In this document: positions 25,096-29,485 of the stretch, piece by piece
Layout: each line of letters begins with the position of its first letter
Position numbering within the stretch: the first letter of the stretch is position 1
Made by a program: the position numbers and the translations under genes
Notes under the pieces: generated by a model
Seen by the model: the letters and a program-made list of their open reading frames with translations, nothing else
Told to the model about the DNA's origin: nothing
Databases searched by the model: none
DNA from: Halorubrum coriense DSM 10284
Lineage (GTDB): Archaea; Halobacteriota; Halobacteria; Halobacteriales; Haloferacaceae
Length of the DNA: 45,178 bases
Assembly (NCBI RefSeq): GCF_000337035.1
Contig: NZ_AOJL01000060.1
Coordinates: 367,073-412,250 of the forward strand
Direction: 5' to 3'

Positions 25096-25168
25096 AGTCC
25101 ATTGGGGTAGTGGCCAATCCTGTTGCCTTCTGGGGGCAACGACCCTGGTTCGAATCCAGGATGGACTA
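25096..25168 (+). tRNA. tRNA-Gln (anticodon CUG)
   Basis: A 73-base cloverleaf. The acceptor stem AGTCCAT pairs with ATGGACT, discriminator A. The anticodon stem TTGCC/GGCAA holds the loop TTCTGGG with anticodon CTG, reading CAG codons. The T arm is CCTGG-TTCGAAT-CCAGG. No intron is present and the CCA end is not encoded, as is usual in archaea. Confidence 0.95.
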
Positions 25169-25265: not shown

Positions 25266-25859
25266 TCACTTCTCGACGTCCAGCAGCGCGACCCGCTCGC
25301 GGACGGCGTCGGCGAGGTCGCCGTTCGTCGCGGCGAGCTCGCGGTCGGTGACCCCGTAGAACTCGCGGACGCGCTCCTCGTCGGCCCCGGCCGAGAGGTC
25401 TTCTCCGTCGGGGATCTCGGTCGAGTCGGTCGCGAGCGACCGGAGAGAGTCGACGGCCCCGTCGAGGTCGGCGGCGGAGCGCTCGACGCCGGGGACCGCG
25501 CCGAAGTCCGCGGCGAGGACGACGGCGCGCCGCTCGCCCTCGGAGATCCCGAGTTCGAGCGCGCGGTCGATCTGCCTGCGGCCGGCCGCGTACAGCAGGA
25601 CCTCGACGCCGGGGTCGCGCGCGACCGCCTCGCCGCGGGCGATCGCCCGCGCCGCGAGCCGCGCCGCCTCGCTGAGCTGCGTCGCGGAGACGACGAGGCC
25701 GGCGTCGAACGCCTGGACGACCGCGCCGGTCTCGGCGGCGGTCGCGTCGAGGTCCGCGAGGAACGCGTCGAGGTCACCGATCGCGAAGGTGCCGGCGACG
25801 AGGCGGACCGCGGGGTCGGGCGCCGGTTCCCCGTCGCCGCCGGCCGCGGAGTCGGTCAT
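25266..25859 (-). CDS. cgi121: KEOPS complex subunit Cgi121
   Basis: A 197-residue protein matching archaeal Cgi121. This KEOPS subunit binds the tRNA 3' end and helps the Kae1-Bud32 core make the t6A modification at position 37 of tRNAs. Recognisable parts are [20 protein letters not shown], the helix [20 protein letters not shown], and [17 protein letters not shown]. The last two form the conserved helix-strand region. It overlaps the hel308 stop by four bases (ATGA), so both are in one operon, an arrangement known from many haloarchaea. The C-terminus ends in acidic residues, with no truncation. Confidence 0.9.
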
Positions 25860-28300
25860 CCGAAATCACCCAGACTGGCCTGTCCGTCGCCGTCGCCGTC
25901 GGCGTCCGCGCCCGCGGTCGCCGCCGCGGAGGCCGAGCTGTCGGGGTCGACGCCGTCGAGCGAGGGATCCTCGCGGCCGGCGTTCTCCAAGATGCGCTCG
26001 GCGGTGCGCTCGCGGCCGCGGAGCGCGCCGAGGACGACCGCCTTGTCCGCCTCGCGGAGGTCGGCGCGGCTCTCGATGCCGGCCTCGTAGAGGCGGCGGG
26101 CGCGCTTCCGGCCGACGTTGCGGACGCCCGCGAGGTCGAGCAGCTCCTCGCGGACCCCGTACTCCAGCCGCTTGCGGGCCTCGCGCACTTGGACGACGGT
26201 GTCGCCGTCGATCCCCTCGACGTCGCGCGCGAGCGTCTCCGCGGCCCGAAGCAGCCACTCGGCGGTGTCGACCTTCCCGCGGATGTCACCGGGGCCCACG
26301 CCGTACCGCTCCGCGATCCGGTCTTCGTCCACCTCGTTCGCCCAGTCCTCCAGCAGGCGGGCCGTCTTCAGCGCGGCGAGCCAGTCCTCGAATCGCACGT
26401 CCTCGTACTCGGAGGGGACGTCGCCGAGCAGCTCCGCCTCGCGCTCGTAGCAGACCTCGGTGTACTGCTCGCGGTCGCCCGACTTGAGGTACAGCTCGTA
26501 GGTGTCGGGAGTCCGGCTAACGAGGTGGTAGAGGCCGAGCGGCGTGACCGCGGGTGCGGGGTCGTCGTCGGCCGCCGACTCGGAGGCGGTGGCGTCCGCC
26601 GCGTTGTCCTCGCCGGCGCGGGTGTACGTCGTGAAACCGGCGTCGTCGGCGTCGGGGGCCGGCTCGTCGGCCGCGACGAACTCGTCGCCCTCCCCCGTCG
26701 CCCCGTCGTCCGCGACGGTCCGGAGCCCGTCGAGGATCTCGGCCGCGCTCATCGGGTCGAGGTAGAGCCGCGAGACGGTGTGGCCGATCCCGGTCGCGGC
26801 GAGGCCCTCGCTCCCGCCGTCGCGGTCGCGCTCGACGAACCCGTTGACTTCGAGGTAGTCGAGGACGGTGTCGGTGACCGCGGCGAGCCGTCCCTCGTCG
26901 TCGGTCTGCGTGGCGTAGAGGGTGTTGTCGAGGAAGGAGAGCAGGCCGTCGCGGGTGGCGGCGAAGCCCGAGGCGACCGTCGCGAGGACGTGGGTGCGGA
27001 GGGCGGGCTCGGCCGCGAGCTTCGAGCGGACCGGCTCGGCCTCGGCCCAGACGTACCGCTCGAAGAGCTCTTCTTGCGTGTCGGCGTCGTTCGCGAGCAG
27101 CACCGCCTCGCCGTAGGGGTCGAGCCCGGGGCGACCCGCGCGGCCGCACATCTGGTGGACTTCGAGCACGTCGAGCGGTTTCATCCCGCCGAACTCCCCG
27201 TCGTAGCGCCGCCAGTCGCGGACGATCACGCGGCGCGCGGGGGTGTTGACGCCGGCCGCGAGCGTCGGGGTCGCGGAGACGCACTTGATCAGGCGGTCGC
27301 GGAAGGCGTCCTCGACGAGGCCCCGGTGTTCGCTCGCGAGGCCGGCGTGGTGGAACGCCGACCCCTCCTCGACCGCGTCGGCGAGGTCCTCGGAGGTGTC
27401 GGTGTCGGAGACGCCGCGGATCTCCTCGGCCAGCTCGCGGAGGCGGTCGCGCTCGTCCCCGGTGAGCCGCGGGCCGGTCACGTCGGTGAGCTTTCGAGCC
27501 GACGACTCGGCGTTGCGCCGGGAGTTGACGAAGACGAGCGAGGAGCCGCCCTGTCCGTCCTCCTCGGTGTCTAAGGCGTCGCCGACGAGCTTCGCGGTCT
27601 GGTCCTCGCCGCGCTCGACGGGGACCTCGCGCTGGCGCCCGTCGTCGAAGTTGATCGCGCTGCCGAAGTGGACGCCGGTGTGGAGCTCGATGGGTCGCCA
27701 GTCGGATTCGACGAGTTCGGCGTCGAGCCAGTCCGCGATGACATCCGCGTTACCGACGGTCGCCGAGAGCGCGACCGTCTGGAGGCCGGGGTTCACCTTG
27801 CGGAGCTTCGCGAGGGTCACTTCGAGGGTCGGACCGCGGTGCGAGTCGTCGACGAGGTGGACCTCGTCGCTGACGACGCAGGTGAGGTCGTCGATCCACG
27901 GCGCGCCGTTGCGGATGAGGGAGTCGACCTTCTCCGAGGTGGCGACGATGATATCGCGGCTGGCGAGCCACTCGCCGTCGGAGTCGTAGTTGCCCGTGGA
28001 GACCCCCACGGTGACGTCGAACTCCTCCCAGCGCTCGAACTCGGCCTTCTTCTCGCTGGCGAGCGCGCGCAGCGGGACGATATATAGGGCCTTGCCGCCG
28101 CGCTCGACGGACGACAGCATCGCTAACTCGGCGATCAGCGTCTTGCCGGACGCGGTCGGCACGGCCGCGACGAGGCTCTCGCCGTCGACGACGCCGGCGT
28201 CGACCGACGCTTCTTGGGGCGGGTACAGCTCCGCGACGCCCTCCGCTTCGAGCGCCTCGCCGACGCCCGCGGGGAGCCCGGAGAGCGAACTCGGTTCCAT
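25856..28300 (-). CDS. hel308: ATP-dependent DNA helicase Hel308
   Basis: An 814-residue superfamily 2 helicase. Walker A PTASGKT is at residues 48-54 and the DEVH box at 145-148. Motif IV-VI parts include [33 protein letters not shown] and [11 protein letters not shown] winged helix, ratchet domain and C-terminal helix-hairpin-helix ([20 protein letters not shown]) follow. Hel308 unwinds lagging-strand fork structures with 3'-5' polarity and takes part in replication restart and recombination. An acidic insertion near residues 545-600 makes it longer than the usual 700-750 residues. A TATA-like box is at 28324-28331. Confidence 0.95.
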
Positions 28301-28323: not shown

Positions 28324-28331
28324 GATTTAAA
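28324..28331 (-). promoter_or_regulatory. TATA-like box of the hel308-cgi121 operon
   Basis: GATTTAAA on the plus strand is 24-31 bases before the hel308 ATG at 28300, giving a leaderless transcript. Only 22 bases away is a second box pointing the other way (28354-28361). Confidence 0.55.
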
Positions 28332-28353: not shown

Positions 28354-28361
28354 GTTTTTAA
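28354..28361 (+). promoter_or_regulatory. TATA-like box facing the structured repeat
   Basis: GTTTTTAA lies about 23-30 bases before 28384, where the structured repeat begins and where an ATG occurs. The open frame after that ATG is arginine-rich and unlike haloarchaeal proteins. If the box is active, the product would more likely be an RNA than a protein. Confidence 0.4.
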
Positions 28362-28383
28362 GCGAGAGACGTAGACGACACAG

Positions 28384-28735
28384 ATGTCAGCGGTCGGCGC
28401 GCGCCTGCGAGCGGCCGCCCCTGGCGGCCGCGAGTCAGCGCCGTGCGAGGGAGTCAGTCGCCCGAAGCAGCGCGAAGGGCGACTGACGAGGCTGGGGAGG
28501 CGCGAGGTGCTGTGCGGTGCTGGGCGGGGCGGGACTCGAAGGGGCGGCCGCGAGGCGGGCGGAGACGACGCAAGCACCGCAGGGAGCGAGCAATGCGAGC
28601 GACCGAGGAGCGTGGTTCGAGACGCCTCCGGCGTCGCGTCATCACGAAAGGCGCGAAGCGCCTTTCGAACGACAGCGAGTGTCCGCCCGCCTCGCGGCCG
28701 GGGCTTCGGAGGTGTTCGCCGCCGACCCGTAGACA
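28384..28735. repeat. Palindromic intergenic repeat, copy B (full length, about 350 bp)
   Basis: A non-coding stretch between hel308 and a methyltransferase gene, packed with stems. Arms are at 28411-28419/28423-28431 (9 bp, loop CCT), 28453-28463/28477-28487 (11 bp), 28513-28521/28573-28581 (9 bp), 28621-28626/28630-28635 (6 bp, loop TCC) and 28645-28654/28658-28667 (10 bp, loop GAA). The last two hairpins and the tail to about 28720 correspond to copy A at 1-120, with the same loops and flanks but other arms. Bases 28736-28807 are A/T-rich with no gene. Confidence 0.82.
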
Positions 28736-28807
28736 GCCACCTATAATCATTCATTCAAAAATACGGAGACTGCTACCGAACCGCAGTTGGGCGATTATAA
28801 TTCCGAG

Positions 28808-29485
28808 TCAGGGGGCGACGCCGACCGTCAGCAGCGTCCCCCACGTCCGGTACCGGTCGATCATCGCCTCGCGGGTCTCGTAGCCGTCGACCGGGAACTC
28901 CGACGCCGCCGGAATCTCGACCTCGCGGTCCGGGATCGCGTCCTGCTCGGCGACGTACAGGCCGGCCTCGCGGAACGCCGTGCGGTACTCGTCGCGCGAC
29001 CAGAGCGTCATCTCGACCGAGATGTTCTCCTGCCACGCGTGGGTCGTCTCGCTCTCAGCGAAGTAGTTGACCGCGCAGTAGAAGGTGCCGCCCGGCTTCA
29101 GCACGCGGCGGACCTCTTCGAGCGTGTGGACCGGGTCGGCCGCGTAGTAAAAAGCCTCCATCGAGAAGACGTGGTCGAACGAGTCGTCGGCGAAGGGGAG
29201 GTCGTCGAAGTCGCCGACGAGGTAGCCCACCGCGTCGTCGTCGGTGTACTCGCTTGCGTTGCGAGCCATCTCCGGCGCGCCGTCGAGGCCGTACCCCCTA
29301 CCGATGCCGCGCTCGCGGAGCGCGCGGAGCGCGTAGCCGGATCCGGTGCCCAGATCGAGGACCGCGTCGCCCGCCTCGGCCGGCAGCCGCGCTAAGACGT
29401 GTTTCGCGGTGTGCCAGTGTCTGTCCTCCATCCCGCGGTCCTTGCCCGTCGCCGCCCACTCGTCGAACTCCTCGCGAACGCTCAT
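28808..29485 (-). CDS. Class I SAM-dependent methyltransferase
   Basis: A 225-residue methyltransferase with Rossmann motif I at about residues 43-50 (LDLGTGSG), then the acidic motif II region YGLDGAPEMARNASEY, and post-motif II VGDFDDLPFADDSFDHVFSM. The middle reads VRRVLKPGGTFYCAVNYF, typical of UbiE/Coq5-like small-molecule methyltransferases. The substrate cannot be told from sequence. It is transcribed alone, towards the palindromic repeat. Confidence 0.9.
   Translation of the reverse strand: MSVREEFDEWAATGKDRGMEDRHWHTAKHVLARLPAEAGDAVLDLGTGSGYALRALRERGIGRGYGLDGAPEMARNASEYTDDDAVGYLVGDFDDLPFADDSFDHVFSMEAFYYAADPVHTLEEVRRVLKPGGTFYCAVNYFAESETTHAWQENISVEMTLWSRDEYRTAFREAGLYVAEQDAIPDREVEIPAASEFPVDGYETREAMIDRYRTWGTLLTVGVAP

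Follow-up and report, generated by a model that had tools for sequence, protein, structure and literature searches.

A dispersed intergenic repeat of the Halobacteria, with a fold selected on its plus strand, lies beside hel308 in Halorubrum coriense

The window, by which we mean the whole 45,178 nucleotide stretch of Halorubrum coriense DSM 10284 DNA that was analysed, contains a stretch rich in GC that holds several perfect inverted repeats and separates hel308 from a methyltransferase gene (Table 1). An earlier note on this DNA had read the stretch as a structured RNA transcribed from its own promoter; the idea of an RNA was right in kind, and what it described is one copy of something much larger. 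The TATA-like GTTTTTAA is present as read, as are the perfect arms of 9 bp (28411-28419/28423-28431), 11 bp (28453-28463/28477-28487), 9 bp (28513-28521/28573-28581) and 10 bp (28645-28654/28658-28667), and the 6-bp arm GACGCC/GGCGTC (28621-28626/28630-28635). However, these arms, described as nested perfect stems, are mostly arranged in series, and the conserved element begins at 28395 (R1 match) instead of at 28384, where the start of the structure had been placed. For the 28513/28573 stem, another pairing is conserved in the family, and the outer stem GGTCGGCG/CGCCGACC is not preserved in copies at the same locus. Several open frames cross the stretch, which had been credited with one; a coding gene was rejected, because the overlapping arginine-rich frames lie in several frames and the variation tracks the stems instead.

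Table 1 Features of the window that bear on the repeat element.
Feature	Position	Strand	Basis or remark
tRNA-Gln (CTG) gene	25096-25168	plus	
hel308	25856-28300	minus	
TTTAAA, probable own promoter box of hel308, apart from the element	28326-28331	minus	same in 14/14 aligned loci
GTTTTTAA, weak TATA-like box, putative promoter	28354-28361	plus	34-41 bp before the conserved core
5' domain of the window copy	28395-28507	plus	R1 match, 96.5 bits, E 1.3e-15; covariation
G-rich linker between the domains, GTGCTGTGCGGTGCTGGGCGGGG-type, variable length	28508-28530	plus	alignment A1
3' domain, the class-wide core	28531-28712	plus	R2 match, 79.1 bits, E 8.5e-13; covariation
Twin-hairpin arm, 61 nt, optional nested module	28612-28672	plus	
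Degenerate tail with TATAAT-like box (28742-28747)	28713-28750	plus	3' flanks compared by eye
Methyltransferase gene	28808-29485	minus	Pfam
Second copy, cut: 3' end with twin arm	1-126	plus	R2, 20.9 bits, 5' part cut off; BLAST 71-126

The 5' domain consists of the stem P1, a hairpin at 28411-28431, the variable hairpin P2 (28453-28487) and the conserved GAGGCTGGGGAGG. The 3' domain is organised around a long helix, in which a GGG/GGG internal loop is conserved, and has purine-rich inner loops, and in the window copy it carries the twin arm; its main long-range helix joins 28537-28566 to 28679-28708. By eye, the tail of the window copy corresponds to the tail unit of the family, which ends in TTTATAA. 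The second copy, at the left edge of the window, extends leftward beyond it. The TTTAAA box of hel308 lies about 28 bp from the start codon, a spacing that would fit a leaderless start. When folded, the plus strand of 28384-28735 reached -217.6 kcal/mol (z = -6.1), a value equalled by none of 100 dinucleotide shuffles, and the minus strand of the same stretch likewise outdid all 100 shuffles (z = -5.2). The window has no Rfam match at the gathering score, and at E up to 10 it gives a single 13-bit chance match on the minus strand; 16 further loci are likewise devoid of Rfam matches at the gathering score.

The stretch between hel308 and the methyltransferase gene belongs to a large repeat family. 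As a query it matches 65 places in its own genome (E up to 0.001), where the covariance model of the 3' domain, R2, finds 43 matches, and it matches 51 of 59 relatives, including all 34 congeners, this query having included the twin arm, which also exists by itself. Our starting set comprised 121 nhmmer hits in 108 loci, from which the 99 hits of at least 70 bits were used for gene context and 77 nearly full copies from the own and related genomes for folding. Alignment A1 holds 68 of these 77 copies, and A2 (59 copies) and A3 (42 copies without the twin arm) derive from 74 trimmed copies. The copies within the own genome are diverged, the best match being 84% over 222 bp, and hence lend no support to recent activity in Halorubrum. 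Across the class, R2 has matches in 217 of the 292 genomes, which represent 61 of the 77 genera. In a sample of the phylum it matches 30 of 246 genomes, every one from the order of the window; among the 20 listed genomes lacking a match (the other 196 are unlisted), 13 belong to that order and 7 lie outside it. Twelve genomes searched more deeply yielded 93, 86, 61, 56, 38, 30, 7, 5, 4, 4, 4 and 3 matches, and plasmid-borne relatives include those of Halobaculum, Halorussus, Haloarcula, Natrinema, Salinigranum and Halorientalis. It is the 3' domain that is widespread, the model of the 5' domain being detectable in just 3 of 68 distant loci (L255-L324, 70 in all, with L275 and L282 left out). 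The core is made up of GGGACTGAAAGGGGC, then a variable helix, GACGAA...GACGCAAGCACCGCAG...GAGGAGCGCAGCGAG, the returning helix strand and GGGGCTTTC. Outside Halorubrum it often starts with GTGGGACTGAA (L258, L259, L272), which resembles the 3' end of CRISPR repeats in haloarchaea, a likeness that may be due to chance.

The element is confined to intergenic DNA. By gene calls from a codon-usage script, which are not an annotation, none of 99 copies in Halorubrum and none of 68 clusters in other genera overlaps a called gene. Multicopy and restricted to the spaces between genes, the element is a dispersed intergenic repeat of the ERIC/REP kind. Outside Halorubrum, 27 of the 68 clusters are pairs, 23 of them head-to-head and 4 tail-to-tail; the head-to-head pairs (L257-L324) often sit between divergent promoters and form near-palindromes of about 280 bp. 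Among the 40 single copies outside Halorubrum whose downstream gene is known, 31 precede that gene in the sense orientation (31 to 9), with a distance to the gene start of 87-117 bp in 24 of them. Such an arrangement would be expected if the element acted in cis on the gene behind it, as a leader or riboswitch, but we consider this explanation very improbable, since the ten downstream genes tested (10 of 36) have ten unrelated functions, ranging from biotin synthase to tRNA endonuclease, what looks like the downstream gene's own and probably leaderless promoter lies between the element and the start codon, and the copies of Halorubrum often face a convergent gene. A riboswitch regulon was rejected on the same ten functions. 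In the pooled Halorubrum set, a convergent gene is faced in 53 of 75 loci (downstream gene known, one copy per locus, hel308 loci excluded), a bias on which we do not rely, because in the own genome alone the orientation is even (15 to 12) and many of the pooled loci are seemingly orthologous.

The fold of the 3' domain is maintained by selection. In 42 Halorubrum copies, 98.4% of the cells of its 34 pairs hold standard pairs, against 86.1% after shuffling; two-sided changes occur in 19 pairs, and structures slid along the alignment drop to 26-42%. Among 95 matches from 12 other genera, 95.3% of cells are paired against 72.3% in shuffles, counts which lean toward the tested structure because finding and aligning these distant matches relied on a model of that same structure. 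Here 28 of 34 pairs show two-sided changes, with 685 such cells against 183 in shuffles, and slid structures reach 32-39%; the conserved sequence around the helices fixes the register, to a good extent, independently of the structure model. In hairpin P2 the stem is preserved although its letters are often wholly swapped. The covariation analysis of homologous copies that the earlier note had suggested thus gave compensatory changes above both shuffled and slid controls, in Halorubrum and in the 12 other genera alike, and compensatory changes above chance on the plus strand are the mark of a structured RNA family.

The variation also distinguishes the two strands. Where one RNA strand tolerates G.U, the opposite strand shows A.C. 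On alignment A4, G.T outnumbers A.C by 98 to 18, a count that excludes the column-6 pair (30 U.G), and the ratio is 21:5 on A3 and 11:2 on A2 (pairs predicted from both strands and varying on both sides). In unpaired columns, C-to-T changes number 14/378 and G-to-A changes 68/1172 on A3, and 39/825 and 128/2361, respectively, on A4; without an excess of C-to-T in these columns, mutation bias does not explain the surplus of G.U over A.C. As the sequences share ancestry, nominal p-values for this surplus are overstated. The folded strand is therefore the plus strand, the one that had been named, and selection acts on it in the form of RNA or, with lower probability, of single-stranded DNA. The claim that the repeat is more than passive DNA is borne out at the level of selection only. 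Passive palindromic DNA, whether an insulator, a terminator or debris, in which the folding of a single strand is not under selection, would account for the degenerate remnants found at L057 and L070 and, by eye, at L042; this explanation is already disfavoured and we give it very little credence, as the covariation stands far above the shuffled and slid controls and the strand asymmetry persists with the mutation control.

Whether the element brings its own promoter differs between genera. Of 87 Halorubrum copies, 36 have a strict TATA hexamer in the 30 bp immediately upstream of the core, most commonly starting at -17/-18, and in the other upstream 30-bp bins it occurs in 0-5 of the 87. Within 45 bp it is equally common with co-directional (18/45) and divergent (18/41) upstream genes. 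Downstream, 40 of 89 Halorubrum copies have a similar box no more than 30 bp past the core, often in tandem tail units; these units, of about 57 bp and ending in TTTATAA (L033, L077, L084, L085, L110), are sometimes nearly identical within one locus. At the hel308 locus, GTTTTTAA recurs in L043, L044 and L051 and CTTTTAAA in L045 and L052, and in other congeners, boxes resembling TTATAAAT lie some 19 bp ahead of the core. The genus Halorubrum is thus characterised by an AT box at either end of the element, and the upstream box is a putative promoter. The proposal of an own promoter stands to this extent, since the hexamer is frequent and AT-rich boxes persist at the hel308 locus. It stands less well for the window copy, which lacks a box at the position usual in the family and keeps a weaker one about 20 bp further out, and it does not extend beyond the genus: all 41 single copies of other genera are without the hexamer. 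In addition, head-to-head copies lie 27-36 bp apart, leaving no room for a box, and transcription from a TATA at -17 would begin about 10 nt into the core and so truncate stem P1.

Comparison of orthologous sites indicates that the element has moved. G304 has 368 bp filled by a head-to-head pair at a site where its congener G175 has 14 bp between two divergent promoters, and the flanks of the two are 90-91% identical on both sides. The L272 pair of G063 is also present in G067, whereas the same site holds 54-64 bp instead of 357 in G112, G084, G137 and G260, and 162-259 bp of other sequence in G271, G075 and G167. Taken alone, each filled and empty pair may reflect precise loss rather than gain. 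No target duplication is visible in one such pair, in which 15 bp of the empty site are unmatched. At the hel308 site, 11 of the 30 loci carry the element in one and the same position and orientation; the copies in L045 and L070 are partial or cut. Ten of these copies do not form a group in a tree built from 77 copies, their mean distance being 0.60 against 0.58 for random sets; it follows that the site was re-filled or converted, and a single conserved ncRNA gene at hel308 was rejected on this ground. Copies of different Halorubrum species have an upstream-gene end in common in their 5' flanks (L030/L034, L037/L107, L090/L110), so some insertions are old and common to several species.

These observations also bear on the suggestion that the copies are resident functional ncRNA genes, acting in trans as sRNAs from their own promoters and multiplied by duplication. 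The selection on fold and strand, the TATA hexamer upstream of 36/87 Halorubrum copies and the constant position and orientation at hel308 agree with it, but site polymorphism between congeners, the lack of TATA boxes in other genera (0/41), the closely spaced head-to-head pairs and the fact that the copies at hel308 are no closer to one another than random copies make it rather improbable. We propose instead, with a probability of roughly 0.55, that the stretch in the window is one of the copies of an ERIC-like element that is mobile but not autonomous, occupies intergenic sites in the Halobacteria and is under selection for the folding of its plus strand as RNA. This proposal is based on a class-wide repeat family, its intergenic placement, the covariation, the strand asymmetry and the filled and empty sites, and on matches that are specific to the order, downstream genes that are unrelated and hence form no dedicated regulon, and same-site copies that do not group.

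We envisage a series of steps by which such an element might persist. The plus strand would be transcribed, in Halorubrum partly from the element's AT box and elsewhere by read-through, and the folded RNA may be bound by some protein through its conserved purine-rich internal loops. The RNA or RNP could then serve as the signal for trans-acting machinery, which would place new copies of the element at further intergenic sites. Once inserted, a copy would be tolerated between genes, could be exchanged or replaced where it stands, and would slowly decay. In its fullest form, a speculative extension that we hold to be less likely than not, the picture would be one of class-wide mobile elements that need no reverse transcriptase, Y1 transposase or TnpB and spread via the folded RNA of their plus strand or an RNP of it, have an AT-box promoter of their own in Halorubrum and harbour a nested, site-specific twin-hairpin element of 61 nt.

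The enzymes encoded by copy-rich genomes limit what this machinery could be. The reverse transcriptase domain PF00078 has no match in any of six copy-rich genomes, the control matching 3 of 14 known genomes, and a retroelement, group II intron or retron was rejected accordingly. The Y1 transposase PF01797 is present in four of the six, with none in G058 (86 copies) or G283 (56 copies), and the TnpB zinc domain PF07282 is likewise without a match in G058; a transposase may since have been lost from these genomes. A phage origin was rejected after two queries gave no match in 50,697 phage records and no exact pattern match was found in viral contigs. Movement of the element through a single-stranded DNA fold that serves a HuH-type enzyme as its recognition signal, as in IS200/IS605, PATEs and REPs, is in our judgement unlikely. 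Folding of one DNA strand would fit the strand asymmetry too, and the one filled and empty pair without target duplication agrees with it; yet a fold of more than 100 nt with conserved inner loops exceeds a transposase hairpin, which is smaller. The Y1 transposases of four copy-rich genomes speak for such an enzyme, as does the abundance of PATEs in Haloquadratum reported in PMC3119063, while the two genomes with 86 and 56 copies and no Y1 match speak against it.

The mobile element that we propose resembles several known systems by kind. Like ERIC and REP-BIME sequences of bacteria, it is short, non-coding, palindromic, multicopy, exclusively intergenic and variable among relatives, and its head-to-head pairs recall BIMEs; in contrast to them it is archaeal and has a much longer conserved fold with a strand bias, the likeness being one of kind, with no relation in sequence expected. 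A REP/RAYT element as such was rejected, since in two copy-rich genomes the element occurs without any RAYT/Y1 (PF01797) gene. The MITEs, PATEs and SMRs of Haloquadratum walsbyi are also transposase-free mobile repeats of a haloarchaeon (PMC3119063), but no terminal inverted repeats were seen on single copies of our element, which has a fold of more than 100 nt and occurs in most genera of the class. Omega-RNAs or sotRNAs of IS200/IS605, represented by RF02656 and RF02657 (named in PMC12558985), are structured RNAs tied to mobile DNA in haloarchaea, whereas the element has no Rfam match at the gathering score in the window and 16 loci and reaches 86 copies in a genome with no match to the TnpB zinc domain; a solo omega-RNA was rejected for these reasons. 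As an analogy only, Alu and other SINE-like sequences are multicopy and non-coding with one strand selected for its fold, but the six copy-rich genomes have no reverse transcriptase. The element is undescribed in Rfam and in the open-licence literature searched, including by sequence strings, a search that could miss an account in a subscription journal; the excerpts of PMC6749651, PMC12306157, PMC5018182, PMC9067536, PMC2841640, PMC3404096, PMC3119063, PMC10927574, PMC12558985 and PMC10969869 that were consulted contain no description of it.

If our proposal is right, a fold conserved through most of an archaeal class has gone unannotated despite 30 to 93 copies per genome in some of its members, and the archaea gain a large ERIC-like family of their own, with a signal at the RNA level. 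The direct questions would then be what binds the element and what moves it, and genetically tractable haloarchaea carry copies, which makes the element testable there. The element also accounts for GC-rich intergenic sequence that gives spurious open frames.

The twin arm behaves like a second, site-specific small element nested in the larger one. It is present at one identical point in 31 of 77 copies, and is exactly absent from L048, which is the nearest copy to that of the window in the tree and comes from the same locus. SMR-A elements nest in a similar way inside PATEs in Haloquadratum, according to PMC3119063. Apart from the core, the twin arm occurs on plasmids of Haloferax, Natribaculum, Natrinema, Haladaptatus and Halolamina. 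Loci of the module are L111-L118 and L261, and in L111 the twin arm adjoins a putative tnpB remnant, read as such by its motif.
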